Origin: Cloeon dipterum
Taxonomy: Eukaryota; Arthropoda; Insecta; Ephemeroptera; Baetidae
Direction: 5' to 3'
Assembly (NCBI RefSeq): GCF_949628265.1
Contig: NC_088787.1
Coordinates: 9,910,501 to 9,974,500, forward strand
DNA: 64,000 nucleotides
In this document: positions 3,910-48,500 of the stretch, one piece after another
Position numbering within the stretch: the first letter of the stretch is position 1
Layout: every line of letters starts with the position of its first letter
Translations under genes and position numbers: made by a program
The notes under the pieces: generated by a model
The model's input: the letters and a program-made list of their open reading frames with translations, nothing else
What the model was told of the DNA's origin: nothing
Databases searched by the model: none

Positions 3910-4623
3910 TATTGTGGATTTGTTGGGGGCTTCGGGGAATGTTAAAATGCAAAAGTGTGCGATGAGTCGCTGCTGCCTTCAAGTTAAATTAAAGAGCTGC
4001 GGCACGAACGAGCTTCTTTACTCGAGATGATCGTAAAATGAGACGAAAGAGGGCGTAACCTACGCCGGCGTGCATGAGAAAAGTCGGCTCTTTTACTGTT
4101 TGCCGGTTTAAAACTATAAAAATATGAAAGAAATTACGTTTTATATTTAATTTTGCAGCATTTATTTGCATTTACAAGACTTTTTATTTAAAAATTTCGG
4201 TGTAAAGCAGGGTATTGCATCACATTCTAGATAAATCCAGTGCGCTTTAACATTGCCGGCCCGCCAGCGCTCACAACGTCACTTTCGACGTTTCCAGAAA
4301 GGCACAAAACGCAATTTTGCTCGCTAGGGGGCCGCCCACCATTGTTCTAACTCGATCTTTCAGGCCATGTGCGATCGCCTTTGCCGCAGCTGAAACTAGA
4401 AGTCTCTGAAGTTATAGTTTTGCGCTTGCAATTATCGAAAGAAGCCTTTATTTTCGTCGCAAACAAGGAATTTAAATCATATTAAAGGTAATTTATTTCA
4501 AAATTTGGTTAAAAAGCCATCAAAACTCGGGAAACTTGTGTCGTAACCTTTGAACTCGGTGTACCGGGTGATTTTCAGTCGGCACCACCTTCGGTCAAGT
4601 TCAATTATGATTTTATTTTTCAG
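3910..4623. promoter_or_regulatory. Bidirectional Hsp10/Hsp60 promoter region
   Basis: The 714 bp between the two start codons hold the 5'UTRs and shared promoter of the chaperonin pair. The Hsp60 5'UTR appears to be spliced: a donor (GTAATTT) after about 4486 pairs with the acceptor TTTTTCAG that ends at 4623, directly before the ATG. About 4250-4440 is GC-richer than its surroundings and is the likely core promoter. No clear TATA box was found. Confidence 0.7.
4287..4299. promoter_or_regulatory. Heat-shock-element-like site
   Basis: Reads GACgtTTCcaGAA: three alternating 5-bp HSF units, the last two perfect (TTC, GAA) and the first with one mismatch (GAC for GAA). It lies in the GC-richer core of the shared promoter, so it could serve both chaperonin genes. 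Confidence 0.55.
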
Positions 4624-7600
4624 ATGTATCGCCTGCCAGCCGTATTGCGAACCGTCGCCAGCCGCCAGCTCTTCCCCAGCAAGACGGCCCTCCGCCACTA
4701 CGCCAAAGATGTCCGTTTCGGGGCTGATGTAAGAGCAGAGATGCTCAAAGGCGTCGACATTCTCGCCGATGCGGTCGCAGTTACCATGGGCCCCAAAGTA
4801 GGCGTTTTTAAAGCAACACCAAGGTCATTTGATTTTATTTTCAAATTTCAGGGCCGAAACGTAATTCTGGAGCAGTCATGGGGCAGCCCCAAGATCACAA
4901 AGGACGGCGTGACCGTGGCCAAGGGAATCGAACTGAAGGACAAATTCCAGAACATCGGCGCCCGCCTCGTGCAGGACGTGGCCAACAACACGAACGAAGA
5001 GGCCGGCGACGGCACCACCACGGCCACCGTGCTCGCCAGGGCCATCGCTAAGGAAGGCTTCGAGAAGATCAGCAAGGGCGCCAACCCCGTTGAAATCAGG
5101 AGGGGAGTCATGACCGCTGTCGACACAGTCATTGAACATCTGAAGAAAATGTCCAAGCCAGTCACTTCTCCCGAGGAAATCGCTCAGGTGGCCACTATTT
5201 CCGCGAATGGTGACCAGACGATAGGAAATCTCATCTCGGACGCCATGAAGAAGGTCGGCAAAGAGGGCGTCATCACGGTTAAGGACGGAAAGACTTTGAA
5301 TGATGAGCTCGAGGTTATTGAGGGAATGAAATTCGACAGAGGCTATATTTCTCCTTACTTCATCAATACTGCCAAAGGTAAAAATTAATTATTTGAATTT
5401 CTTCAGGAAAATTTTGAAAATGATTCATTTTCTCGCGTTTAAATGAAATATATATACACTACTAAAAACCAGAAGTTAAAAAAAAACTTCACTTTAAAGG
5501 TGTAGAGAGGTGTTAATTTTCCTAGCTAACAATTTTTAATTCACAGGTGCCAAGGTTGAATACCAAGACGCTTTGGTGCTGTTTAGCGAGACCAAGATCT
5601 CTAGCGTCCAGTCGATCATTCCCGCCCTCGAATTGGCCAACTCTCAAAGAAAACCTCTAATCATCCTTGCTGAGGACATCGATGGCGAGGCCCTGAGCAC
5701 CCTTGTCGTTAACAGGTGCGGTTTCAATTTGAAGTAAACTAAAACTGAGAGTAACGAATGATATTTCTAGGCTGAAGATCGGTCTGCAGGTCGCTGCTGT
5801 CAAGGCTCCCGGCTTCGGAGACAACCGCAAGGCTACCCTGACTGACATGGCGATTGCCACTGGTGGCATTGTCTTCGGAGATGAGAGCAACTTGGTCAAG
5901 CTGGAGGATATTCAGTTGGCCGATCTCGGTGTTGTTGGTGAAGTTTCCATCACCAAGGATGACACTCTTTTCCTCAAGGTTAGGACTGAATTTTATAAAA
6001 ATTAGAACGAATAATGTTCGTGAAACAGTTTTTAAAATTACTCATAGGGTTGGAAGGTCAAATTCTTTTGAAATGACCATTCTACATTTTTTTAATCAGG
6101 TGTTTTCTTTCCAATTGTACCGAGATGTGTCATCAAGAAATGACATGTCTTTTTTTCTAATGGATGATATTATGTTATTACGTAATTTCAAAATGGTTGC
6201 GAAATAACAGTGTTGCAGGAGTGATACCAGGTTACATCATTGTTTATCATGCTAAAGCATGATATTTTCCAAGCTAAAACTTTGCAATTTTTTCATTTAT
6301 TTTGTTTACGATTTGCTTAGATAGGCAGGACGCTTGGGTGAAGGCGGCGACCGACAGGTTGCTGCTTAAGCTCGTGAGTGGCCGATGGAGCTGCCTGTGC
6401 AGTATATTCCTAGCCACAGCGTCCGAAATTAACTCTGTCCTCGCCTTTGGGCTGAGGACGGCGCGAGTATATTCCTTGTGCTCCGTGAGTCCATTGGGCA
6501 GTGAAACGTGGGCAATGGCCATACTCGCGACATTTCAATATTTCTGCATAAAGATGATTTCTTTCCTACTAAAAGTAATTAACTACATTGTCATACTTAA
6601 GAATTCATAAAAAATTGTGCATCCGGACCTGTTGTAAACCCTGATAAGTGGTCGTAATAATATCTTCGTTTGATTTGATTAATCCTTGTCGGCTCTGGGC
6701 TTCACAAAATATTATGAATGATTTCATATTATTTATTCCGCTGAATTCCAGGAACCTTTTATGATATGAATGGATTAATCGCTAAATATTCATATGAAAT
6801 TGAAAAAAGGGCTCGGAATCGATTGACAGTTTTCTTAAATAATTAAATCAAAATCAGATCTGATTAACTTGCGCAAGGTTTTTCCAAGAAAGTTGCTCAA
6901 TTTTGTCTGGGACTTCTTTTAAGCTGATAATCAAAACATCGTTTTAATTAATAATTGATTTAATATATTAATTCTAGGGTAAGGGCAAGGCCGATGACAT
7001 CAGCCGTCGAGTGGAGCAGATCAAGGACCAAATCGAAAACACCACTTCCGAGTACGAAAAGGAGAAGCTGCAGGAGCGTCTTGCGCGTCTGTCCTCTGGC
7101 GTGGCGCTGCTGAAGATCGGTGGCTCAAGTGAAGTCGAGGTGAACGAAAAGAAGGACCGCGTGACCGACGCCCTGAACGCCACCAGGGCCGCCGTGGAGG
7201 AGGGAATTGTTCCCGGAGGCGGCACCGCCCTGATCAGGTGCATCCCTCACCTCGCCAGCCTCAAGGCAGCTAACCCTGACCAGCAGACCGGCATCGACAT
7301 CGTCAAGAAGGCGCTTAGGATGCCTTGCATCACCATTGCTAAGAATGCAGGCGTCGACGGCTCGGTCGTGGTGGCCAAGGTTGAGGACGCTGCGCCAGAA
7401 ATCGGCTACGACGCCATGAACAACGAGTACGTCAACATGATCCAGAAGGGAATCATCGATCCCACTAAGGTGAATATTTCTCCAGGGATTGGGTTTTGGA
7501 TTTTTAGAAGCAATTGTTTGATCTGAATACGAATATCTGTGCTTTTAAATAATTGCTAAATTTAAATTAAAAAATAACGTTTTAACTATTTTTATAATAA

Positions 7601-26165: not shown

Positions 26166-28932
26166 TTAATAAACGTATTTAATTTTGTCTCCAATGAAAA
26201 TTCCACTTTCGGTATAACTGTCAAGAATGTTGATGAGTTCTTCATCCACAAACCAGTTGGCTGATTCGTTATTAATATTAGCGCCGAAGAAAAAGGCAGT
26301 CACGTCCGGATATTCCTCATTTGTTGTCCTACCATTTCTCAAACTTTTTGCAAGCGTGGAGTATTCACTCCTTCGATCATTCAAGTAAAACTTTAAGCAC
26401 GTCAAATTACTAAGGCAAACTGCCGCGCATTTGAGGAACTCCACAATTCCATTGAATTGTTCGACGTTGACGATAAGAGCTAAAGAATCGACATCCAGAT
26501 CTATGACGAGAGTCTTCAGTTTCTGCAGGATTTCTTTTTTAGCGATTTTTGAAGTTAGTTTTTGCAGATCTTCGAGGTAGGGGTCGCTCAAGATGACTTT
26601 CTCCAAGTCTGGCGCACACAATATATTCACCATCTCGTCCCTGCTTCCGTTCGGGCTGCAAATGAATTGGAAAACGTGAAGTTGTAATCTGACGATCCAA
26701 AAAATATTTAAAACTATAATATAATAATCAAATACATACGAATGCCATCTTTATTAAACACCCAGGTTGCCAAATAAACAATTAAGGTAATTTATGTTTG
26801 AAAATCTTTTACTATATAGACCATTTTGCGTGCGTTCTACGTGTTTTACGGAATTCAAAAGTTGTAAAAGTGGATCAAAATGTTAAATTTTGACAGCGTC
26901 GCATAAGTTGTTGGTTTGATTCCAGTTAGAAGCGGAGCTTAAAGCCTTAAAATCGCGTGATTCATGCAAATGATATGGTGTTAAAAATAAAATATTTACA
27001 CAGAAAAACATACGAGCGTCTGAAATTCCCAACCTTATTTTAAATTATATGTACTCACAACACAAAATTCAATTCCACTTCTTTGAGACGAGCGTAAAAA
27101 GTGATCGGCTCTGGGTCGCTGATGACAAGAAACAACCGTAGTCTCTCAAGCAAAGGGCAAGCAGTGAACATCCGATTTAAATTCAGGAACGGTTCCATCT
27201 CGTTGTCATCGTGTTCGATGTTCAATGCGTTTAGATTAGCTCCGAAGGTGTAAATAAAACGGAACATAACATCGGGCGGGAAGTCGAGGAAATTCAAGCT
27301 CTCAATGTTGGTGAATTGCAAAATATAATTCAAGCACTCCCAATCCCAATTGGGGTCTTCATACCAATACATCTGAAATAATAACAAAATTGTTAAATGG
27401 AATTGAAACTATACCTACAAATAATATCTATTAATCAATTGAAATAGATTATCAATCATATTTTACTACCGAAAGGTGTCTGACGTTAGGGTATTGTATG
27501 TGCACGTCTTTTTCTGGGAACTCCAAATTGATTTTGATCATTAAGTGTTGCAGATTTGAGTATCCATCAGGGTCTACTTTGTTTGGAGTAGAAGGGTCGT
27601 AGTCTCCCTTTGGGAGGAACAGCTCAGAATACTCTTGTAAAACGTGCAGATTCGAAAGATTCCTCATGCACTCTCTTCTAAGAGTGCAATTGTTCCGTGC
27701 CGTGTAGAGAAATTCTTTCAAACTCGACATACATTTTTTTAAAACTTCCGCACATTTGACACGATCACTATTAAAATCGTCGTAGTCGTCAAAGCTTTCT
27801 GGGAAGTTGATGCTGAGAATTTGCAAGCTTGGAAGGTTTTCGCACAGTTGGAGTACGTCTTTGAGTTCGAAGCAGCACCATTCATCCAGCTGAAGGACCC
27901 GCAGATTTTTTAGCTGGCACAGCGCCTTCAACATCTCAGCATCCACGATCGAATCGAACTTTCTGTAGTATTGAGGGGTTTTGCCCAACAGCAAAAGCTC
28001 TTCGATGTTGGGAGTGAACTGCGAAATCCTAATCACTGCCTGCATAAATGAAGCAAATTTTATGAAATGTTATATAGAGATTCTAATTTATTTTTTTAAA
28101 TACAAACCGATTTAAGATATTGATATTTCAGCCGAATTGGGCAGAAAGACAAAAAGGCGGTCAAGTCGATGACCTTGAGACCAAGTGCCATGTAGAGCCT
28201 TAGAGCCGGGCACATCAAGATTCTCATGTCACTTTCCTCCCGAATAAGACTCGTGCACTCAGTAGTCATGATGTATTTCACAACCTTCACGAGCAGGGTT
28301 GAAGCTGACAATTTTTAGATAATTTAATTAAAAATGGACTGGAGAGATAATAATATAATGCAACTTTTATAGTTTCATTTTGACAGGATTATGGGCTGCT
28401 GCATAATAGGTATCAGCCAAGCTACGCATACGCAACGCCAGCCGGCAAATTTTGGGTTTCTTTTTCAGCACACCCAGAAATAAATCCTTAGTTAATAACG
28501 GCCAACAGTCAGCCGTGCCAAAAGCGGCATGCGATTTTTGCTTCAGTTGAAGGCACGATTTTTATTCAGACCGTGTGGTACTTTCCCATCTCAATTGTTC
28601 AAACTATTGCAGCGCGTAGAATTTATGACAATTTTGGATTGTTATTGGACAGTATTTTTCAAATATTTGTTTTTCCTGCTGCTCTTTTAAAATTGCTGAG
28701 GCCGAAAACATTGGCACAGAAACGTTTCTGGTCAGCTTTATTAAAAGGCCGAAAAAAATTTAAATTAAAAGATCAAATTTTTCTACTTACGAAGATCTGT
28801 GATGTATTGAATTTTGGCCGCGGCCGTTGGTGAGAGGCCGAAATTCAACGCAATTCGCCGAACGCGGTCCGCGCAGTAGCGTGTGCGTAACTGCATGCTC
28901 TGGCCCAATTTAAACTGATCCTGGTCTGCCAT
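26166..28932 (-). CDS. F-box-like / leucine-rich-repeat protein, copy A
   Basis: Five exons, 28932-28791, 28304-28108, 28039-27470, 27372-27059 and 26655-26166, close in phase and give 570 aa. Exons 1-2 join to DLPSTLLVKVVKYI, which resembles the start of an F-box (LPxxLLxxIxxYL). The rest has leucine-rich-repeat-like units, for example NIEELLLLGKTP, LKNLRVLQLDEW, LPSLQILSINF and FTNIESLNFLDF. By analogy it may be a substrate receptor of an SCF ubiquitin ligase, but the F-box is weak and this is inference. The start MADQDQFKLGQ is conserved in copy B. Copy B lies in the same orientation about 1.5 kb beyond its 5' end, so this is a local tandem duplication. Confidence 0.75.
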
Positions 28933-29170
28933 TGTGAAATAAGGCTACTGCGATGTTTAAATGTTGCTCAAGTTTCAGAAAAGCAGTAAAAATGATGGGA
29001 AATTAGTAGAAGGCTGGCTTTTGCCCGCAGTTTGTTTTTTAATCGCCCACGCGTTCTTCAGGGAGAAACGAAGTGAGCGAAACATCTGTTCCATCAGGTG
29101 GTTTACACTCCTCCCTCGAGTGGGGGTGAACTGAATTAAAATAGTTTAGGGGTAGGTGGCGGGAAACGTG
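28320..29170. repeat. Duplicated 5' region of LRR copy A (intron 1, exon 1, promoter)
   Basis: Nearly the same sequence as 34740-35640, including intron 1, exon 1 and upstream DNA (for example CACGCGTTCTTCAGGGAGAA and CACTCCTCCCTCGAGTGGGG). The duplication therefore carried the promoter. Confidence 0.8.
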
Positions 29171-29189
29171 CGTGCGCCAGACCTGAGAA

Positions 29190-29950
29190 TTGATTCGATC
29201 CCGCACTTGGCATGCGTCCGTTCCACTCGGTACGCAAAATTTGCTCTGCTAGATGGTGTTCCATGTAGGGGTTTAGAAAACACTAAAAGTACAGGTAATT
29301 GACCAGTTGCATAAACCCTTAGTTATTAAAGCCACCAACAGATGGCGCAACCAAAGATTTCTTTAAAAATTTTGTTTTAAGCTGTTTTAAGGCATATCCG
29401 CTGCGATTTCAGACTCAATCTAGCTATTTTGCATTTTGCAATTAATATGCTTTTTTTGACGTCCTGAAAACCAAAATCGGTTCAGCCATTCACCGTAGAA
29501 ACGTTGGAAAAGATTTTTTTATTTTAAAAAATAGTTTTTCATGATTCTACGGCGATTGGCTTAACCGATTTTGGGTTTCAGCTCGTCAAAAAAGCATATT
29601 AATTGAAGAATGCACAGTAGCTATGTAGATTGAGTCTGAAATCGCAGCGGAAGTGCCTTAAAATCGAAAGTCTACGGTGGCGCCATCTGTTGGCGGCTTC
29701 GAACACTTACGGTTTATGCAACTGGTGAATTGTTAATCTTTTTTAATTTTTGATACGAAAAATAGATAATCAGCACACGCTTGGGTATGAAACAATTATT
29801 ATTGAAACGGGGCTTATTAATTTCCTACCGAAGTCGGGCACAACGCACCAGAAATGTTCCAAAGATTATGTAAAATAAATTAACCTCGGTGACGTTTTGC
29901 ACGATATTGAATACAATAATATAGACAACATTCAGTGTTATATCATGTTG
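29190..29950 (+). repeat. Duplicated flanking block, copy 2, split by a MITE
   Basis: Same block as at about 23890, interrupted at 29302-29726 by an inverted-repeat element. It continues with CACACGCTTGGGTATGA and a phrase close to GTGACGTTTTGCACGATATT. No gene is supported here or in 29951-30398, which holds a poly(A) signal for copy B (30362-30357, minus). Confidence 0.7.
29302..29726. mobile_element. Long-inverted-repeat MITE, 425 bp
   Basis: Ends ACCAGTTGCATAAACC and GGTTTATGCAACTGGT are perfect inverted repeats. Weaker complementarity runs inward over most of the element (for example GATGGCGC facing GCGCCATC, and CGCTGCGATTTCAGACTCAA facing its complement). AATTG lies on both sides and may be a target duplication (one base offset on the right). 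No coding capacity. Confidence 0.8.
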
Positions 29951-32059
29951 TATTTTGATATGTTAATAATATACATATTAACATATCATAGAAAAGATTT
30001 GAAAATTTAGACACAATGATGTTTGAAGCTTCCTAAATTTTCTGACTTAATTTTATTTAAGGTGAAGGCACGCCCTCGTATTATGTACATTTGTAAGATT
30101 TCATCAGCTTAATATCTAATTTCTTTTTGCTCGAACAATTTGTCATAACATTCGTGCGCCTACAGTTCCGAGTTCCGATCCCAGCTCCCGCACTGGAATT
30201 ACTCTGATAATGAAGACGGACATCCTCGCACAAGAACCAGCCGCGACCAACGTAGTGCCCTTTGCTATCCTGCTTTCATATTATTTTCAAGTGCCAGAGG
30301 TGACTTTTAATCAGGGAAAATATGCGAAGGAAAAAAAACATTAAGTTTAAGGATTTTTATTAACAATAAATTTCATTAATTATTAATATATAGGTACGTT
30401 AAAAAACGTATTTAATTTTTTCTCCAATCGAAATTCCACTTTCAGTATAGCTGTCAAGAATGATGATGAGTTCTTCATCCACAAACCAGCTGATGGTTGA
30501 TTCGTTATCAATATTAGCGTCGAAGAAAAAGAGAACCTCGTGAAGATATTCTTCATTTATTGCCTTTCCACTTCTCAAAAGTTTTGCAAGCGTTGAGTAT
30601 TCACTCCTTCTATCATTCAGGTAGAACTTTAAGCACGTCAAACTACTAAGACAAGCTTCCGCGCATTTGATGAACTCAACAATTCCATTAAATTGCTCCA
30701 CAGTGAAGGTAAGTGTTAAATAATCCAGTTCTATGACGAGAGTCTTGACCTTCTGCAGGATTTCTTTTTTGGCGACTTTTGAAGTTAGTTTTTGCAGATC
30801 TTCGAGGCAGGGGTCGCTCAAGATGACTTTCTCCAAGTCTGGCGCACACAATATATTCACCATTTCGTCCCTGCTTCCGTTCGGGCTGCAAATGAATATA
30901 GGAAAAGGTATACGAGATGAATATTAAGCTGATGAAATAAAACTCAATCAAAATTATGATGGAAGACCACCAAATATTATTAAATGTCACTTTTGTTTAA
31001 AAAGAAATCCATAACATATCGACCTATTAAGGCCATTTTGCGTGTTTTATGCAATTCTCAGGTTTATTAAGCAGATCATATACATATTATAAGCCTTACA
31101 AATGCGTGTTTCGTGCGTACATGGTGTCAAAAAGAAATTCGGTCGCACAGGAAAATAAGACGAGCGTCTGGATTTCCCGTAACCCTATTTTAAATAATAC
31201 TTACAGCGCAAAATTCAATTCCACTTCTTTGAGACGAGCGTAAAAAGTGATCGGCTCTGGGTCGCTGACGACTAGCCACAATCGTACCCGCATAAAAAAA
31301 TATAACCCAGGAATATCCGGAATAATCTTAGATTAATCAAAATTTACCCGAAAAAATTAATCCAAAAAAATGATCCAGGATTAATCCTGTATTAATTGAG
31401 ATTAATCTATGAATGTTTAAGATCAATCTAGAGATTAATCTAAAAAAATATTCTCAGATTATTCCTTAGATTATTCTGAGATTAATCCAAAAAAATAATT
31501 TTTGGAATTTTCTTAGAATGAATCTAGATTAACCTTAAAATGTTTTAAAGTCAATCTAGAGATTAATCTACAAGAATATCCCTAGAATAATCCCAAAGGG
31601 GAAATTTGAATATAGTTAATAGAATATCCCCAGATTATTCTATGGATCATTCTGAGATTAATTCAAAATATTTTTTAAATATCCCTTGAATATTCTTTAA
31701 AAACCCTAAAAGAGAAGAACTTTGATATTATTCTTAATATTAAAAACAAAATTAATTAAGAAACATAATTTAATCAAGAAAATTAACTGCCATATTGTTA
31801 AATAATATCACAAAAAATATTTTTCAAAGAAATATTTTTTATTAAGTTGATGGATTAAATTTTGATATTAAATCCTAATCCTTTTTCATTTTCTAATACA
31901 AAATTATGATGCCTTTTATTCATAGATGCTGCCCAGATTTAAAAAGGTAAAAAAAATCATAAAATCGATTAAATGAATTAATTTCTTAACACAAAGAGTC
32001 TTAATTAATGCTACCGACAAACGAGCAAATATGAAAATAATGGTCAGAAGGACAAAAAA

Positions 32060-33075
32060 GGGTTAAAAGGGCGATTTTAGTGTGCGCGTGGTAGCGGCGG
32101 CTGCACATGCATGCACGCACTTGCATGGAATGCCTGCTGCTGCTGCTGCTGCCTGCCTCTGTTGTGGAGCGGGGGAGGGGCGACGGGCGGTGGCAGCAGG
32201 ACTAGCGAGCAGCAGCAGCAAGAGACTTACAAAATCCTGCTTCGCTCTCTTTGTCTAACGCGTCAACGGTCAACCGCCGTTCAAATCGAAGTTATTAACG
32301 GACGCAGGACGCCGGACGCCGCCAGTATGGGACAACACGGACGTCCCGCGGACTCGGACGGATGGCCTGGATCTTGCGGTTAACAGGGTAAGTCCCATTT
32401 TATAGATTAGCGTCCAAAGAAATTAGAACAGATCGCGCAACTTTGAAATCCAACGGTTTTATAGTAAAATTACACTTTTCGCCGCTTCTTGTACGGTTTT
32501 TGCCTCCAATATATTGATAATGGATTCCCGCCAGTCCTTAAGATCACAATTCGAACCCCGTAAATAAGTTTGGGTGGCGGAAACTGTCAGTCGGTGATGA
32601 AAAATGTAATTTTTCTATGAAAATCACGGTGGCATTTTTAGTACGCTTACGCGAATTTTTTATTACACATTCTGATTCAATTGGATTTGCATGGAAAATG
32701 GAAAAATATTATGCATGATTTTAATACATACTTGAACCTTCCATTTTCTAAGCAAAGCTAATTGAAATAAAAGATATTATGGGGGACTCACACTTTCCGC
32801 TCACTCACACTTCTCGCTCTGATGGGAAGATTCAATGTTAATCCCTATCCTAGCGAGAAGTGTGAGTTGGGCGAAAATGGTGAGTCTGCCATATATATTT
32901 TTTTCTTTGAGTCTCTCCCTTTTTTAGCTTCAAGCCGTTCGGTGACATTTTGCACGACGAAAAAAGATGCAATCGTTAAAGTTCTGCAGTTTGGGCTTCA
33001 AGATAAGGCGCTGCTGGCATCGTATGATAGAAAAATTGTAGCTATATTATGTAATATGATTGATAACTAATAAAT
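32060..33075 (+). other. Gene-like cargo inside the transposon
   Basis: A GC-rich stretch (about 32080-32395) stands out from the AT-rich element. It has CTG and CAG triplet runs and ends in a strong donor (CAGG then GTAAGTCC at 32388). A candidate acceptor (CCCTTTTTTAG, near 32928) and AATAAA near 33070 follow. Only short frames run across this splice, so I claim no protein. It resembles the promoter, first exon and tail of a captured host transcript, or a non-coding unit. Confidence 0.4.
32803..32867. repeat. Short inverted repeat inside the transposon
   Basis: ACTCACACTTCTCGCT (32803-32818) faces its exact complement at 32852-32867 across a 33-nt loop. It may be a hairpin in RNA or the remnant of a smaller insert nested in the element. 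Confidence 0.7.
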
Positions 33076-34739
33076 TTTGCAAATTTTTAAAATTTAAATT
33101 AAGTTTGTAATTATTTAAATGATTCCCAATTAAGTCGCAATGATAAAATATTTTGTAATGTTCTAGGAACACTCTGAGGGAAATTTTAAGAATTATTTAG
33201 GGATAATTTTTGTCACACTTTATGTTAACCTTAAAATGATATTAGAATAACCTAAGAACATTCTAAGCTAATTCTCAAAGAATAATACAAAGTTAAGATT
33301 TGATACGCTAAATATTAATCCTAGATCAGTCCAAAGATTAATCCATAAGTATATTCTGAGAATGTTCTAGGATCATTCTTTAGAGCTTTTTGAAACAAAC
33401 CCCGGCAGAATAATCCTGGAACATTCTAAGGATATTCTCTTAAATTAATCTACAGATTAATCCAGTATCACGAAAAACCGTATCATAAGTTCATATATAA
33501 TTAATTTTTTAGATTAATCCTGGGCGAAGTCGGTTTATTCTTAGAACATTCTCAGGCGATATTTTTTTATGCGGGTAGTCTCTCAAGCAAAGGGCAGGCA
33601 GTGAACAAGCGACTTAAATTCAGGAACGGTTCAATTGTGCGGTCATCGTGTTGGATGTTCAATGCGTTTAGTTTAGCTCCGAAGGTGTAAATAAAGCGGA
33701 ACAAAGCGTCAGGCGGGAAGTCAGTGACAGTCAAGCTCTCAATGTTGGGGAATTGCAAAATATAATTCATACTCTTCCAATTCCAATCTGGTTCTTTATA
33801 CCAATACATCTGAAATAATTACAAAGGCGTTATTAAAATAAATCGATTCGAAATCATCAAAATAATATGCACGAATCAATTGAAATAGATGATCAATCAT
33901 ATTTTATTACCATAAGGTGCCTGACGTGGGGATATTGTATGTGCACGTCCTTCTCTGGGAACTCCAAATTGATGTGGATCAATAAGTGTTGCAGATTTGA
34001 GTATCCAGGAACTATTTCGTTTGGAGTAGAGGGGTCGTAGTCTCCCTTTGGGAGGAACAGCTCAGAATACTCTTGTAAAACGTGCAGATTCGAAAGATTC
34101 CTCATGCACTCTGTTTTAAGAGTATCATTCCTCCTTGCCGTGTAGATAAATTCTTTCAAATTCGACATGCATCTTTTTAAGACTGCCGCACATTCGACAG
34201 GATCACTATTAAAATCATCGTAGTTGTCAAAGCTGTCTGGGAAGTTAATGCTGAGGATTTGCAGGCTTTGGAGATTTTCGCACAGTTGGAGTACGTCTTT
34301 GAGTTCGAAGCTGCACCATTCATCCAGCTGAAGGACCTGCAAATTTGTTAGCCGGTACAGCGCCTTTAACATCTCAGCATCCACGATCGAATCGAATCTT
34401 CTGTAGTACCGAGGAGTTTTGGTCGACAGCAAAAGCTCTTCGATGTTTGGAGTGGACTGCGAAATCCTTATCACTGCCTGCATAATATGAAATAATGTAG
34501 AGATTCTAATTTATTTTTTTTTAAATACAAACCGATTTAAGATATTGATATTTCAGCCGAATTGGGCAGAAAGACAAAAAGGCGGTCAAGTCGATGACCT
34601 TGAGACCAATTAGTGCCATGTAGAGCCTCAGAGCCGGGCACATCAAGATTCTCATGTCACTTTCCTCCCGAATAAGACTCGTGCACTCAGTAGTCATGAT
34701 GTATTTCACAACCTTCACGAGCAGGGTTGAAGCTGACAA

Positions 34740-36521: not shown

Positions 36522-39500
36522 TCAAGCGGGCATGCATCTCCTGAGCTTGAAAGTTCCGCTTCTGATCTCCTGCATGAGCTTGTCGACTACACACGAATCC
36601 TCGCCGTCCGAGGAGTCGGTCGAGGTGCCTCTGCCTCTTCTCGTCCTCTTCATGCTCATTCCTCTGGTCGGCGCCGGCGACTGCTGCCGCATCGTCAGCA
36701 CTCGCGCCTCTTGCACCCTTCTCTGCTCGTTTTCCTGCAGGAAAAATTATTCGTAATCATAAAATCATGTTAATAAGGGTTAAAATTCATGACGGTAGAC
36801 TCCTTTTTGAAACTTATTTACTTCAGATAGGAAATTCAAAGTTCTTTATTTGGACCTTGTAAAGCTATTTAAATCTATTGAGGACTTGGACTAACCCCTC
36901 TATAAAAATTAAAAATTAAAACACAAAAAATTTCTTTTTGCTGTATTTTATGTTTGAAACATGATTTCATATTGCAATTTAAGTAAATTAATAGCTTCCG
37001 TTTTGTAATCTGATAGTTCTGGTAATTTATCTTCAAGACACAATTATTTTGCAACTCAACGACCAAATTAATGAAAACTAAATAATTAATGAAATTTCCA
37101 GTGTTTTTAATTTTCTTAGTCTCAAAATTCAATTTAAAATAGACATATTTTATTGAACTCACCTTGAGAGAGGTCTGGGCCTTGACAAGGAAGTCGGAGA
37201 AAAGGGAAAAGCACTCATTCAGTTGGAATTTCTCTTCATCTTCGCAGAAATGACGTGCCAGCCTTGAGCTGGCCACTTTGATCGCGTCCAACTGCCCGCA
37301 CAAGTCTTCTGAAGTGGTCATAGCTCCGCTCAAAAAGTCTAAAATTTTAAATTAAAATTCAATTGCTCCCTTATTAAAATTTCTCCTACCGGAAAATTGA
37401 ATCTTGAGGTCATCTGGTGCGTGTTGAATCTGTTTGTCGAGCCGCTGCACTCCGGAGCTCAGCGCTCTGACCTCCTCCTCCATCAGTTCCAGGGGCACCC
37501 TGATAATATCAAAGAAATTAGAAATTTAACAAATTTATTTGTATTTTAATAATTACTTTGCAGCCTCGTGCACGACGTCCAGCTCGGACACAAAGTCAAG
37601 GCACCCTGGCTGCTTGCTCGCGATCTCGACGGCAAAGTGGAGGAAGGTCATTCTCGGCTTATTGGCCCTGGTTTCCAGCAGGCGCGGCAGGGTGCTCAGC
37701 TTAAACCCAACAGCGTTTCCTGCGTAGCTACCCTGAAATAAAAAAATGTAAATCCAGGGCTAGATTAAAAAATTTTAATCGCAACTCACGGCATTGAGCA
37801 TGTTGCCCAGGTGCAGGATCAACGCGAGGAATTCACGCAGGGAACTATTTTCTACCAGTGTGGAACACGCTTTTAGCACTGCCTTCAACTGAGGCCGCAG
37901 CTCTTTCGCCGTCGGGTTGAACTCTTCACGCTGGGAAATTAAAGAGTTTAGGTTTAATGATCTAAAATAAAAAGAAATTAACTCACTTGGAGCATGGCTC
38001 GGATTCGCAGGGCGTAGCTAGGCACTTCATTCAGCTGCAGGTAAAAGCTCTCTGCATCTCCCAGTCTCATTTTTTCGTCAAGCTGCTGAGCCTTGATCAT
38101 CGCCAACTGCAAAGAGGAAAATAAATCAGACAACTACTCGAATTTGATTTGATTTGATTACTTCATCTGGTTCTGGCAAAAGTCTCAAAAGGCCCCGCAG
38201 CTTGTCGGCGCCGATTGCTCTGCCGTTTCCCTCCTGGATGGTGGCCAGAAGGCCATCGACGCCGAGTTCTCTGAACTGCCGCAGCAAAATGTTGACGCCA
38301 AGACTCCTCTTGGAGTCGAGCACGTTGACCACCTGCACGTCCTGGCTCGGGGACTTGGGGGACAGAGGCGCCGCGGCTGTTGCCTCTGGAGACGTGGTTC
38401 GCTGGCAGAACAGCTCCTCCATTTGCCGAAAGTCGACAGTCAAACTCGGCGGCTGGGCACCAACAGTGTTCCAAACTGTGTCCTCTGTGGAACAGAAACG
38501 GTCCATTTAATGAAAATTAATCATTGCTGTATGAGTTTAAGTCGATGATCTATTTTATCAAATCCGACAAATTGATTGAAATTGATTTTTCGTATTTAAA
38601 TCGACTTTTATTAGTGAATTTAACAACTGAATCGCAAAAAATGCTCTGAAATCTAGATTTCCATTCAAATTTAATCAATATTTTTGGTCGGGAAACAATT
38701 CCAAAATGGAATTCATTAATCGGGTTTTACGTAAAAAACTTGTCTGCTGTAAACTGAAATAATTATTTAAATATTTAATTTGGTTGTATTTTTTCCGTCC
38801 TGAGGTTACATTAAATTGCAAAGTATTTAAATGTGATGCTAAAATGTACAACACAGAGTTAAAATCATTTAAATTATGTGCATCATTCTGCTTGCCACTG
38901 CAATATATTTACAAATAATTATTTACAAATTACAACCCACACAAAATTTGCTAAATAGTTAAATATTATTTATCTCTCTAAAATAATTAAATTTACATAA
39001 TTTATTTATTTATTGAAGTCGGGTTTAAAACAATTCAACGAAGCATTTGCAATTAGAATAAAAAATTATTTTAAAACAAATTTTTATGTTTGTTAAATGT
39101 GAAGAAATAATATGATTCCATGGATTTTTATTCCTCATTATTTACCATTATTTTAAAGCTTGAATTCCGGCCTAGTTTGTAGTGTAAATGAAAAGTCGAT
39201 TAACTCGATTTTATTTCTTTATTTTTAATTACTTATTATAGCCGCATAATTTCAGATCTGATTGACTCACCGTAGTTTTTGTTTGGTGGAATTTTGGTCC
39301 AGTTGAGCGTCTTGAGCCTCTTCTTTGACGGCGGCAGCGAGTTGTGCCTTTGCAGCTCCGTGTCGGGGCTCCAGCCGGACGGCAGGGTGGCCGGCAGGGA
39401 GTGTCTGGTCGGCGAGGCGAAGTACTCGCCCATGCTCATCGCCGGTGGGGGCGGCGGGCCCCCGGAGGCCAACATCAGCGGGGGTGGGGGCGGCGGAGGG

Positions 39501-42500
39501 CCTCCTGGGCCCGGTGGAGGCGGCGGGGGAGGCGGAGGAAGCATCATGGGGGGCGGAGGCGGGGGCGGCGCGCCCTCCATGGGCATCGGGGGTGGCGGGG
39601 GCGGAGGGCTGACCGGCGCCGGGGCCTCCTCGGGCACGGGGGCCGTCTGGGTGGCGCACTCGCTCGGCTCCTCGTCCATCGGGGTCTGCGTGGAGGAGGT
39701 TTTCCGCGAGGGCTTGGCAGCCGCCTCCTCCATCGTCTGCGTGCCCGACGAGCGGCTCGGCGTGCGGATGTTCCAGCGACGCGCCCCGCGGGCCCGCGGC
39801 GTCTGCGAACTCGCGTTTTTCGCTTGCGACTGCAGCCGACCCAGCCGCCGCTGCGCCCAGTGCAGGGACCCGTCCAGCGCCCTCGACGACACTTCTTCCA
39901 ACAACTCCCACATAAGATCACTGCACAAAAACATCATTTTTAATCTAAATATGCCAGTTTTTTCCAGCATTAGAGGCTAATTTTAGGGTTGGGAATTAAA
40001 AATACATTTTAACCTATTATATTTACAATTTCTTTGCTAACCTAGCACTTTCTTTCACATAGTTTAAAGAACGTATTTTCTTGTTTATTCACGATTATTT
40101 TCAAATTTGAGTAATTGAATTAGAATGAGTTATATCTGTTACTATTCTATTAAAGTAAACTATATTTTAAAACCAATACACGTGTCGAACTAAAAATTGC
40201 ATGTCCTAGTCAATCCTTTTAAATTATTTAACAGGCTCACAGTTTCCCAATTTTATAAGTCCTATAAGCTAATTTTATATTAAATCCCAAAAAGTAATAA
40301 TGATCAACATTTTTTCTACAAGCCTTTTTGGCAGGATTTAGTTTTGAAATGATAAAAAAAAGGATTTTTCTCTTTATGAAATGCGGCAGTGGAATCGAGG
40401 AAATTGCAAATTAATTTTTTTCCAGCACGCTAAAAAATATTCTTGAGACATAAAATATTCTCATAAAATCTAGAACACAAAATCAAGTGTATTGATATCA
40501 AATCTTCCTGTCTAAGTTAAAAACGTGACGTACAACTAGATTTTTTCGTCATTAATAAGAGAATGGCGTTATGAGTCACGGATAATTAGAATTACATTAT
40601 GTCACCTGCTACTTGGAGAAGTGTCATTCATACACACCTTTGGAATTTCCTGTAGTAAATAAAAAAATACTCATTTTCTGTACGATACCGATAAAGCAAT
40701 TATTGCTCTAGTTAGAATTATCTTAATTGGTGGTGCCTAAACATTTATTAGCAATTTTTCCTTTTATTGTTTGAATTGCTCCAGCAAATTTTTATTGGAT
40801 ATAATTGCCTGCTGTGTGTCGCTGTTCCCTATCCTCAAATAACACAAAAATGAGAATAAACATAATCTACACACCTTTTCCTACTGGCTGTGTCTGTTTG
40901 AGCCAAGTTTAATAGCACCGAGTGTAGTCGGTACGCTTGAGGAGTTCCCAAAACCTGCAACAATCGCATTTCAGTATAAAATTTCGATTTTATGATTTCT
41001 ACGGTTTTCACCTTCTCGTAAAGGGTGTGAAACAGCTGGTGGTGCGACAAAGTCATCATTTCCTCTGACTGGATCATTTGTTCCTCGTCCATTTCCTTGC
41101 TCTCTTCGAACGCATTCAGCTGGACACTCAACTCTGCCTCCAGATCATTTGCTCTCAATGCGGAGAGTTCAGCTCCGAATCCAACCCCTAGAAAATCATT
41201 ATTAAAATTACTTTATAATAATCAATCATATTTAATTATTTGTTGAATTCTTGTAATTAATCTAAGTCAACTCCTTGCGTCCTCAAGGAGGTGTCGACTA
41301 AATAAGTGAGGGAACAATATGTTCGCCGCTGCATTTCTGTGGTTATAAGAAATTACAAACAACTGGGAGCTTATTTTAATGGGAAAGCTAAAGTAAAATT
41401 TCTATTTTTCAAAGTGGAAAATAAGTAATTTAGTAGTTTTCAAACAATTAAATAAAAATTAGACCCTTTTTGGCTTGTTGGAAAATGATTTTATATCCAG
41501 GTAAATCTAATGTGTCTGCCATTTAAAATAAAACTAACCTATGAGCTCGTTCCTGAGCTTTACCCGGTTGATCAGCGAGTCTGCTCCCTGGATGAGACAG
41601 TTGGCAAAGGCCACGATGGTGGAGCGGTAGCGGTCGCTCTCGCACCCCCGCAGCTCGGTCACCAGGGGCTGGAACCTGTAGCGGAGGCCTTGGCTCGTCT
41701 GTTCAATTTTTTTATAATTTAATACATATGGGACAAGATTCAGGAGGGGGAGGTAATTTTACCGTGTAGAAGAAGAGCGAGTCAAGGGCGAGCGTGTGCC
41801 CCTTGGCCGAGAAGAGGCACAGGGCGCACAACAGCTCGAACACCTGCATTTTGACGGTGATGTTTTGCGAACTGAGGGCTGAAACATAAATCAAAGTCAT
41901 GAGGGCAAGCCAAGCATAAATCAATTGATTTATTCATTCGATTCTCATCGTCATCGCATTCAAATTCTCTCTCGACGGAGTGTTTTTTAATAAATTGACC
42001 AGCGAGTGAAACTGATTTCGTGCAGGGAGACGCCAAAAAAAAGGTGGAATCTGCCACAGAAGAGTGTGGTTTTCCTGATGTCAATGATTGATTTCGCGAT
42101 GCTCCTCCTTGAGGATGCTTAATTTCGGTGCGGTCGAAATTGGTGAAAAAACAAACCAACGATTGGCCGGCGGAGCCGCAGTTCAATGCCGAATGCGGCG
42201 AATTTTCTGCGTCATCTGATTAAATTGTGCAAAATGTTAATGCGTAGCAAACAAAGCATAAAAACGAAATTTCACGGGGCGTTTTCATACACAAAAAAAA
42301 CTCACCACCGACATAAATTTAAATTCGATGAGCAAGACAAAAAATTGATGATACGAAATTTTTAAAATTTAAAATTAAAATCAACAATCCCCAATTTTAA
42401 ACATTATGGAGCCATCAAACTAGAGGGAATCATGCAATTTTGAGAAATTTAAAATATAAATCAACTTAAAATTCGTAAAATTGGGCACAATTTTAGCTAA

Positions 42501-45500
42501 GGGACCCCGTGCTAAAAACGTTTTTTAAAATTTGAAAATTTAAACAACAGTTTTAATATTTTTTTTATTCAAGTTCTTATTTCAAATAACTATTTAATGT
42601 CATATTAGATTGATTATTTGTCTCCCTGTTGCACATGATTAAAAAAATGAATTTTATATATTCAATTAATTGCAGAAACAGAATAATACACATTTTTAAA
42701 AAAAGAATAGATCGTTATTTAGTTTAATTTTTATTTTATAAAATTTCTTGAGCTTGAACATTTTGATTTTTCTTCAAAAAATGCTTTAGAAACGGACATT
42801 AAATTAATTTATAAAATTTATGACTTAAGATTAAAAATTTCACTAACAGCTATCCTGAATCAATCCCCGCAAAGCGCTGAGCCATTCAATAAGAACTATT
42901 CTACCTTAAAAACTTATTTACTTTTTGGTAATATTAATTCAGTTCACTTATGTGCGTTTTAATAATTAAATTTCAAAGAATTCGCCCAGTCAGACTAAAA
43001 TAAATTGCTCCGGTTAAAAAATTGCAATCATTATCATACAAAATTGGCGCCGGCAGAATAAAGAAACTCGGGAGAAAAACAGCGTGTGTGCAGCCACGAC
43101 TGACCACTTTTTTTGAGGCCATCCACACACTCATACATATAAAGCGCGGCAGCCCCTGGTGTTTGCATCATTCCCTTGATCGCAAGCCGCAGCAGCAACA
43201 CACAGTCATGAAAAGCCTGGCCGCCTGTCTCTTCCTGGCCGCCGTCGTGGCCGGCGCGCTGGCGCGGCCGGCGGAGCAGGGCATCGAACTGCAGAGCTTG
43301 CAGGACGTGATGCCGACGACCAACCTGCTCGCCCAGGACCTCGACCTGCTCGCCCAGATGGGACAGCAGCCCGTCGTCAAATACAACCCCCAGGATAGAC
43401 CCGCGCGCGCCAGCCCCCTCGCACACATCATTGCAGACATCATTGACGTGAGTTTCCAAAAGTTTGGTCACAATTTTTTTATTTCGTGGGAAGATTTCAT
43501 TGAGAGAAAGTGGTTTATTATATACGAAGTAAAAATGATAGCAAATTTTATTTTTCTGAAGGCTTGAAAATTCATTCCAATTCATCCAAATTCATGAATC
43601 CACATTATCAAGAGCTAGAGGAATAATTTGATACATGATAGAAATAGAGGTGTGAGAGTAAAGAACATATTTATTTATTTTTAAGCTAAAAAATAATTAT
43701 GTTTTCTTTTTTAAGATTTAATAACTGAAATATTATTAATAATAACACATGTATTTGATTAAAAATAAAATTAAAAAAATAAAATACGTGCAATATTTTT
43801 AAATAAAAAAATAAGAAATCAATAGATTAAAGTGTAATTCAAATTTTACTAAAATTAATTACTTATTGTATTTTTTTTAAATTATTATTTTATTTTACAC
43901 CAATTTTCTCGGCATGGAAAGAACAAATTTAATTGTGGTTTCTAAAATATTTTACCTAGAAAGATTTCCATGAATTTTATTTTTCACAGATCAAGTACCA
44001 ACTCGGCAGGGCTTTCCTATCAAGATTCTTCACTTTGTCAGCCTACTGATAAAACGAGAAAGAATCGCGTCTCGGGTCTCGGCTTCATCGACTTTACCCC
44101 AACTGCACCTCAAAGACTCCTTTTTTTATTTTTAAACTTGAACTCAACAGTACAGTGTCAGTAACTATTTATGTAATAAATTTAATTATGTGACAAAACT
44201 GTGCTTTCATTCATTCAATCAATCACCGCGCGCGCTATTTTCTCTTTTACAAACAAACCGCAAACACTGGTCGACCGAGCGCGAAAACAACTTGCGCACA
44301 TGCACAAATCAGCCAAGGTGAAGTGCAAGGTGCAAAAACCAGACACTGCATCTCGTGCACCTTGCCTTGATGCACAACGAGAGCACGCGTGTGTGTTTGT
44401 GCACACATATATGCGCGGTGGCGTAATCGCAGAATTAGCGGCCAGAGCGAACCTGACGCGCTCTGTCACAATCCGCGCCACTTCAGACTTTTCTCCGCTC
44501 GAGCGCATGTTAACTTTTCAAAGCAGACGCATACAACTCGCCAATTTAACGCGTGAAAGCTGCTGAGTATATGTAATTGACTCAAAAGGATGGGCATTCA
44601 TCAACGTACTTGCACAGACAGTTCGCCCTGCACTCAGCAAGGATAGTGATGATTTAATGTGCATTTCTCAGCTCACGCGGTCATGCAGAAATAATTTTCT
44701 ATTTAATCGAGTTTTGTATATATACAGGATTTTTACAGGCTAACATTTAAGAAACTTTGGCTATGCAACAAGTGGCACATTTTTTGAGGATTTTGCACAA
44801 TTTATTGAAATATTAAACTAATAAAAAGAAGATTTTTTGCAATATTTCGATTCTTCTCATCGCAATAAATCCAACGGTGTGTGAATTATGTGGTAAGCTG
44901 TCCTTGTTTCAATTAGGAAATAGTGCTCGCCACTTGATCAGCCAATTTTCTCGCAAATGTTAGCTCTTCACCAATTGAATACATTATTTAAAGTAAAGAA
45001 AACAGATTTTATTGAATTTTTCAGTGCCGATCCTTCGTAAAAAGTCTAGAGGAAAAATAGCAAAATAAAGATTGCCTTTTATCTTGAAGATGTTGATTAA
45101 GTTTTGCATCCATTGCCGGCTACTTTAAACTGCTAAAAGCACACTCGAAACTATCAAAAATCGAGCTTAAAATCAAACAGTGGTCTAAATTGAAAAACAA
45201 CTTATGAGCTTAGAAGTTGCGAAATTTACGTTTCAAGGAGAATGAATCAGTTAAAAAAAATATGAAAGAAAATTGGTTTTGAAATCAGAATTTTCTGATC
45301 GGAAAAGAAATGATGTGTCAGCAGAGCTTATTTTCAGTAAAAATAATAGAATAGAATTCCCAAGTCTGTATTTTTAACAGATCAATTTCCTCGTTTGAAG
45401 AGATACACAACCATTCATCTGGAGGTCATGAGGCTACTTTTTAACTTCATTTATTGCTATGGAAACGTTTTTGTCCTCCGATAATTAAGAGAAACAGACG

Positions 45501-48500
45501 TTGAAAATGTTAGTTTTACAAAATCTTTCAACCAGAGTGCGCATTGGAAATTATATGTATTAATAGGCTGCTGCGAACGTTGACGGATTATCTCTGCTGT
45601 ACAAAGGGAACGGTCATAGTACATCGTGACGTTATCTGTGTTAAGGCAGGTATAGATTAAGACAAACACAACTTCTGTTGCCCTCAAAGTTGGTCTTTCT
45701 TAAGAGCCAGTTCCATTTCGGAATTAAAATGTTTTGGTCTTCAATTAGAAATTTTATCATCTTGATTGCCGAATATGTTTAGTTTCTTTCTGTACACGAT
45801 TTACCATTATAAACCTAAAATTCTGAGGGCAAAAATTTTATTTTAATCTAAGAACGTAAAATTGACCCCACTGGGGACTAGATTCGTGCGACGCGCAGAT
45901 ATGGTGTCCGGTGGAGGATGGCGCGAAACAACGGTCACGTGAAAATGCGCGAAAAGAACCAAGTTTTCGTCAATATTGTGATGTAATTTGCATTGCTTGT
46001 ACTAATTGTGTCCTTTAGATCGTAAAAACAAACTCTTGACACTCGTACGGGAATCAAAAGAGAGCTTTTTGCATCCCACATTCAGACGCCATCTTGGATC
46101 TGCGCAGTGCGAACCAATTTTATCGCTCATCTGGCCCCCGCTGAATACAATAAGTTATTGCACTCATTTTGACGCCATTTTGGATCTGGCCGGCGGGAAC
46201 GCATTTCAACGCGCATCTGGCCACCACTGATCAATTAACCTCATAATAAATTGTCATCTAAATTATTTTTCAGTCGATTGCGAATTTTCTAGTCATTTTC
46301 TGTAAAACCCCCCTTATAAATCGTCCGTTATCAAAACACTTCCCCTAGAATGCATCATCGAGTTTTAAAGAGAAATCTAATTTGATTCCTAGATTTCAAA
46401 TGAATTTATTTTCCTGGTTCCAATTTTTCCGATTTTTATAGATAAAAAAATTTGATTAGCCGCATTTGAGATTATTCTCGATGTTAGTGTTTTAAATTAG
46501 ACCGTGATAGGAACACTACACACTCTAGTTAAAAAACGTTTGCAAAAAACAGTGTCGTTTTATAATTATCACGCAGCATTGAGATGGACGTTGAACCGTT
46601 CAGGTGCGGTGCATCATCCTAATCATTTAAGAAGCTAGAAAGGGGCCCACGATAAAACAAAGTCTGGCGTCCGACAATAGCACGTGTTGTCACACTCAAT
46701 CTCCATTATTTCAATTCGCTCGGCATAATCTGCATGCTGATAACAACCTCCTTAATTGAGGCCTCAGATCCGAGCGCGCACTCGTCAACACAAAGCCGAA
46801 AGTGAGAGAAGCCGCTTTCATCATCGATGCCCGATCAATCAAGGAAAAGATTATATGCGCGTATACAAGAGGGAAAACACTGGTTTCCACGTAGAAACTT
46901 AATGCAAAAATCGAGATAAGACTCTAAATCGAGAAGTGACGAGAGCTCACCGTTGACCAGCTGGTGCACGTACTCGGCGTGGTCCAGCAGGAAGGACAGC
47001 CCGGCAGCAGAGTTCATCACCTCGCGGATGCACTCGACGACGCGCAGCTGCGAAATTGTCTTTTCCATGCCCAGGGTGGCCCGCGGCGGCCCGTCCGGCG
47101 GCCCCGGGCAGCTGCCCAGCCGCTCCAGGGCCTCCAGCAGCACGGCCAGTCCGCCTCGCTCCACAAACTCCACCATCCATTCCCTGAAAATTAGATTAAT
47201 AATTGGAGTTTATTAGTCATTTTTTAATTTTTCTACTAGATGAATTATGAAAAAATAAGGACGTTGCAGAGGAATGGCTGCAACTGGGGTTGGAAATTTA
47301 AGATAATAACCGACCGTTTTTTGCTGTTTATTCCGATGTAATTTAGGAATCAAAAGAGCAATTTTAAGACTTAAAACTGTATGAACCCATCTTTAGAGAC
47401 CATGCAAAACTTTCTAATTAACCCTAGAAACACATCAAAATTAAAAATTCTCTCATAATTATTCACTTTTCCGGGTCATTAATTTCATCTTTCAAAAATC
47501 AAATACTGTTTTTGACGGTTTTGTAATTAGTTTAGTTTTTTTCTCCGAAAATAGTCCTTTTTTATAGAAACGGAAGTTTACATTAATCTTTTGTATGACA
47601 AATAAATGTCGTCTTGTTAGTAATTTTGGAGCAAATACTATCATGCCAGCAAATTAAACAGGCATTTATGTGCGGTCACTGCCTTCTTTAATTGATATAA
47701 TGGGATTCAGTAAATATCCCTACAAAATTGAGTCTTAAGTTGTATTTTGAGATCATTTTTATATTTGCAACATGATTTGCCGACAAGTTCAATTAACTAA
47801 AATATGTATAATTATTACACCCACAATTAATGTGCGTTCAGAGAGAGATTGAGATAACATATTATGTATTAAAATTGGTGAAACATGCAAGTAGTGTTTT
47901 TTTTTTAAATTTATTTTGGATATATTTGCTAACTCATACCTATTTTAAAAATAATTATATTAGCATTTAAAATAAATAATGACTATATAATGAAAAATAA
48001 AAGAAATTGTAAAAATAAGAATAATTATTTTTATTTTGTTACCTATATTTATAATAAAATAAACACATACATTTTAATGTCAGTATATTTAATTATAACC
48101 TTATTAGTTTAACTACTATAGACAAATCAAAATTTTTCCTTTACGTGCTTAGTTTATATAAAATTTTAATCAAGTATTTCTATTGTTAGTTCCATTTAGA
48201 TAGTTTTCGTAGACTTTCTAGTTAGTAACATAATTTACTATTTAAAACACGACAACATCCACCGTATCTAACAATTCATTCCTATATATAAACCTATTTT
48301 TTGCCCCTAATATCAATTTATCACCAGCAATTTCCCAATTTGCAGTTTTGAAACAAGCCTTATCACCTAACCCTCTTGTAAACCAAAACACAATAAATAA
48401 ATCTGAAAATAGAGCCAGGCGTAATTTATTCTTGATATCAAAGTGTCGCCGCCGCCAAAGCAGCAATATTATATCATCAGCAGGAGTCAGGAACTGCGAC

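Follow-up and report, generated by a model that had tools for sequence, protein, structure and literature searches.

A putative small secreted-protein gene nested antisense in an intron of an INF2-type formin gene of Cloeon dipterum

A compact gene and its formin host

Our analysis of a 64,000-nt stretch of the Cloeon dipterum genome (hereafter the window) revealed a candidate gene for a small secreted protein on the plus strand, lying inside an intron of a formin gene that occupies the minus strand. The sequence-only reading had spoken simply of a formin, and the host can now be narrowed to the INF2 type. The host intron (46950 to 41879, 5,072 nt, phase 1, GTGAGC...TTTCAG) leads from the GBD exon, whose last base is 46951, to the FH3 exon, whose first base is 41878, and the two exons are joined in frame. 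The GBD exon covers 46951-47209, where 47209, the end of the open frame, is an outer limit. The corresponding frame (46838-47209) matched Pfam Drf_GBD with an E value of 6.4e-7 and 29.5 bits, slightly below the cut-off of 30.1, and its best matches among PDB sequences were to inverted formin-2 (3.6e-9); the other matches (20 of the 24, from 5.9e-5 downward) were mostly to HisF and designed barrels. When the 118-aa peptide joined across the junction was compared, inverted formin-2 was matched at an E value of 1.8e-24 in an alignment that was gapless at the junction and contained one 9-residue gap elsewhere, with formin-like 2 and 1 following at about 3e-6. Because the junction aligns through to INF2, the small gene sits in a single host intron on the opposite strand; its coding span (43208-44049) falls wholly within 41879-46950, and the antisense nesting read earlier from the letters was thereby upheld.

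Downstream of the intron, Pfam and a codon scan placed further host frames over an overall span of 36875-41878 on the minus strand. Three of them belong to the FH3 region (41763-41878, 41543-41704, and 40835-41212, given as open-frame limits, not exon ends). The frames 41543-41704 and 41763-41879 came from the codon scan, the latter being also part of the INF2 alignment, and the frame 40838-41212 matched Drf_FH3 at 6.7e-4, below the Pfam cut-off. A proline-rich FH1 region follows at 39236-39976 (open-frame limits; Pfam FH2 at 0.27 for 39239-39976, below cut-off). Two FH2 frames complete the series, one at 38126-38506, in which 38129-38506 is the sole host match over its cut-off (Pfam FH2, 1.4e-13), and one at 36875-37351 (Pfam FH2, 0.0017 for 36878-37351, below cut-off).

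The small gene opens with a TATA box (TATAAAG, 43138-43144) and, 30 nt downstream of the TATA start, an initiator-like TCATTC (43168-43173), which we take to fit the initiator consensus TCAKTY and which sets the presumed transcription start at 43170. After a short 5′ leader, the ATG at 43208 begins a coding exon of 80 codons (43208-43447), which is followed by a predicted 542-nt intron of phase 0 (43448-43989, GTGAGT...TTTTTCACAG) and by a second coding exon of 19 codons plus the TGA stop at 44047-44049 (43990-44049). The donor GAC/GTGAGT spans 43447/43448, and the acceptor TTTTATTTTTCACAG/ATC spans 43989/43990, so joined in phase 0 the two exons give 99 codons. A poly(A) signal (AATAAA) lies at 44175-44180. 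Every position assigned earlier to the TATA box, initiator, ATG, junction, stop, and AATAAA agreed with the sequence, and the elements follow each other in the order and spacing of a complete compact gene (43138-44180) with a signal-like start and one intron.

Of nine donor and acceptor pairs considered around the called junction, six gave products of 127-138 aa and three gave 99 aa, the called pair being the only one of these three with GT...AG canonically placed. Read-through of the first-exon frame in unspliced form, which would yield a product of 119 aa, was set aside in favor of the spliced 99 aa. The pairing of TATA box and initiator is found once in the window and six times, counting both strands, in the 264 kb of the window plus its two 100-kb flanks; none of the other five pairs is followed by an ATG frame of more than 36 codons among the frames listed (at most three per pair).

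Elsewhere in the window, an HSP60-type gene occupies 4513-7526 on the plus strand. Its frame 4516-5385 matches Cpn60_TCP1 (2.8e-32), and the plus-strand frame 6978-7526 was judged by eye to be its continuation.

The predicted product and its relatives

The predicted product is a pre-protein of 99 aa (MKSLAACLFLAAVVAGALARPAEQGIELQSLQDVMPTTNLLAQDLDLLAQMGQQPVVKYNPQDRPARASPLAHIIADIIDIKYQLGRAFLSRFFTLSAY). A rule-based score, which combines a hydropathy window (2.85 here), a basic residue near the start, and small residues at -3/-1, predicted a signal peptide over residues 1-19 (43208-43264, plus strand), cleaved after ALA and before RPAEQ, in agreement with the earlier proposal. A secreted-start filter run over both strands of the 264 kb, with thresholds set post hoc when the gene was already known and with signal peptides split by introns escaping it, was passed at one place, the first exon of the nested gene. 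Because of this signal-like start, the product is probably secreted.

As had been anticipated, the mature chain would comprise about 80 aa (residues 20-99, exactly 80) and lacks cysteine; the sole cysteine is residue 7, within the signal peptide. A disulfide-rich type is therefore disfavored. The amphipathic C-terminal helix that had been suggested did not rise above chance, since the best helical hydrophobic moment (muH 0.46 over 18 residues) was reached by 743 of 5000 same-composition shuffles of the last 32 residues. Residues 64-67 read RPAR (43397-43408, plus strand) and form a candidate R-X-X-R site, presumably a convertase motif, that was likewise not above chance (2225 of 10000 shuffled versions of the mature chain contained one). 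The 99 aa contain no dibasic K/R pair, and the single amidation-like site, a G-R at residues 86-87, has one basic residue only. A split after residue 67 would separate an acidic piece of 48 residues (pI 4.53) from a basic, hydrophobic C-terminal piece of 32 residues (pI 8.55, GRAVY 0.65); such an acidic-then-basic layout occurs in some peptide precursors.

The view that the protein matches no known family held for the Pfam, NCBIfam, and PDB sequences searched, which together with the own genome are the collections that speak for animals. Pfam returned no family at E ≤ 10 for the spliced 99 aa and none at E ≤ 1 when the query was the unspliced frame. NCBIfam returned rodlin alone, below threshold (0.073, 13.1 bits versus a cut-off of 75), and the PDB sequences returned 6lod_B alone (E 0.06, hydrogenase-component-like), which we took as chance; the last 32 aa had no match in either of these two collections. 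Pattern matches in GTDB genomes (155) and IMG/VR viral contigs (13), none of them confirmed, have little bearing on an animal gene. None of six peptide words of the product occurred in the text of 5.39 million papers, where sequences are seldom printed. None of the literature titles listed dealt with this gene, but the search for formins and nested genes was blurred by the term also matching "forming". By "unrecognised" we mean only absent from the libraries searched, and the gene may already stand predicted in public annotation.

Within the own genome (190,111,064 bases in 10 contigs), a DNA search yielded one match, the gene itself, and protein searches with the whole chain and two pieces of it also found only the gene itself at E ≤ 0.001. 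The next best match, on contig C4, had an E value of 0.77 and 37% identity over query residues 28-81. When that locus alone (3,177 bases) was searched by tblastn without composition correction, the match reached 32.3 bits and an E value of 3e-6 with 34% identity over 58 columns, a value that scales by hand to about 0.2 for 190 Mb and is not significant genome-wide. The frame that holds it is 115 aa long and neighbors other acidic frames, and none of the frames listed there has a signal-like start. We took this match as chance rather than as a paralogue, with remote kinship possible. Apart from the gene itself, nothing in the window and its 100-kb flanks (264 kb, 21 sequences) scored better than E 0.98 in a tblastn search.

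With 150 of the 279 candidates scored, a neighboring 194-aa LRR-like frame used as a control retrieved at least 131 own-genome matches, the lowest at 30% identity, and the own-genome search is therefore able to see families. A profile for OBP, however, yielded four candidates and one match, so a diverged short paralogue might escape the same search. The gene is thus probably single-copy, no paralogue having been detected by a search whose sensitivity is limited for short, diverged exons.

The control frame belongs to a family of repeated LRR/F-box-like coding frames, named by eye, at 26166-34510 on the minus strand. At E ≤ 0.001, the one 194-aa frame had at least 131 genome-wide matches, some of them with internal stops, among the 150 candidates scored out of 279, which makes this family a large expansion. 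In addition, a COX1-like fragment with two stops was observed in nuclear DNA at C2:8963136-8963273 (locus L005; 33.4 bits versus a cut-off of 34.8) and is possibly a mitochondrial insertion.

These searches bear on two alternative views of the product. The chain could be a diverged member of a known animal family, or belong to a family missing from the libraries, in which case it would have orthologues and perhaps a studied function elsewhere. We give this view a substantial chance, if one somewhat short of even: animals were covered only through Pfam, NCBIfam, and PDB sequences, the HMMER filters discard most weak matches, and short secreted chains diverge fast, whereas the empty Pfam result at E ≤ 10 and, within the limits of printed sequence, the absence of the six peptide words from the literature text speak against it. 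Alternatively, the whole 80-residue chain could work uncut as a small structural or matrix component of cuticle, eggshell, or cement. The chain contains leucine, glutamine, alanine, and proline at high frequency, and small secreted genes that are TATA-driven and GC3-rich fit strong tissue-specific output, both of which favor a structural role. However, no Pfam family, cuticular or other, was matched at E ≤ 10, no tandem repeat was reported in the gene, and no relative lies within 100 kb on either side of the window, although many structural families are clustered. On balance, we regard a structural role as rather unlikely.

Coding potential of the first exon

Owing to its GC richness, this region readily yields ATG frames of 79 or more codons by chance, and 902 of 2000 dinucleotide-shuffled copies of 43145-43447 contained one. 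Such a frame combined with a signal-like start arose in only 2 of the 2000 shuffles. The codon log-likelihood of exon 1, trained on 16 long frames picked from the window (just five of which were scanned against Pfam), was 14.3, a value reached by none of 2000 shuffles (mean −26.5, SD 8.3). The GC3 of exon 1 (0.86) falls within the span of 0.47-0.93 of the 16 neighboring frames. A composition-matched codon score was 13.9 in frame, whereas the five other frames scored −34.3, −56.5, −5.8, −16.4, and −65.5. Exon 1 thus looks coding on sequence statistics; the codon support for exon 2 is weak (2.1 in frame versus −6.6 and 0.5).

An antisense frame of 185 aa (43034-43591, minus strand) also crosses the GC-rich exon. 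A codon scan that covered 40800-47300 and used 11 of these frames for training ranked the exon 1 frame as the top plus-strand segment with 69.9, and the antisense frame scored 54.5; only the host GBD exon scored higher (74.0), though it was itself in the training set. The antisense frame was rejected as the coding one, its score being below that of the plus-strand frame and no Pfam family matching it. That the locus is no gene at all, and that a chance frame lies in a GC-rich island such as a regulatory element of the formin, is very improbable: the frequency of long open frames in shuffles and the antisense codon score of 54.5 are what favor it, and they are opposed by the rarity of signal-like starts in the shuffles, the negative scores of all five other frames, the higher score of the plus-strand frame, and a core promoter and poly(A) signal that are correctly placed.

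Proposed function and comparison with known systems

With the nested position, the signal-like start, the coding exon 1, and the lack of a detected paralogue established by sequence statistics, we consider it likely that the locus is an autonomous two-exon gene with a TATA box and initiator, antisense in the intron that separates the GBD and FH3 exons of an INF2-type formin, and that it encodes an exported pre-protein of 99 residues. The gene is probably real, small, secreted, and single-copy; its transcription, splicing, and secretion are what we infer from its sequence. Its own promoter would drive a two-exon transcript from the strand opposite to the formin, and the pre-protein would be exported through the endoplasmic reticulum, where signal peptidase would remove residues 1-19 and leave the cysteine-free chain of 80 residues. 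In the most likely functional reading, this chain is a small peptide or protein that is secreted and acts extracellularly. A cut at RPAR67 might further release the acidic 48-residue piece and the basic 32-residue C-terminal peptide; such convertase cutting, together with peptide activity, is speculative and in our judgment unlikely to occur. Still more doubtful, and at best a long shot, is the proposal that the 32-residue product released at RPAR is an undescribed peptide hormone or host-defense peptide, restricted to the lineage and born in the INF2 intron.

If expressed, the autonomous secreted-protein gene would be one more small secreted gene of a type that can escape automatic annotation through its antisense position in an intron, and studies on the origin of new secreted genes within introns would gain a candidate. 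Nothing in our results suggests a new mechanism.

To our knowledge, insect neuropeptide and antimicrobial precursors resemble the predicted product in having a signal-like start, a short chain, one R-X-X-R, and acidic followed by basic segments; unlike such precursors, it has no dibasic sites and no family match, and its helix and R-X-X-R are at chance level. It also resembles insect orphan or lineage-restricted small secreted proteins in being small, single-copy as far as searched, provided with a signal-like start, and without family match. As for its position, this would be a nested gene of an ordinary kind, nesting being well known in animals. Nested genes are put at about 6% of Drosophila melanogaster genes, frequently on the opposite strand, and 2mit is described as lying in an intron of tim2 of Drosophila and encoding 1141 aa with a transmembrane domain (PMC3786989). 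The gene predicted here is like 2mit in tim2 in being a two-exon gene inside a single intron of an unrelated host on the opposite strand, and it differs from 2mit in its product, which comprises 99 aa and looks secreted.
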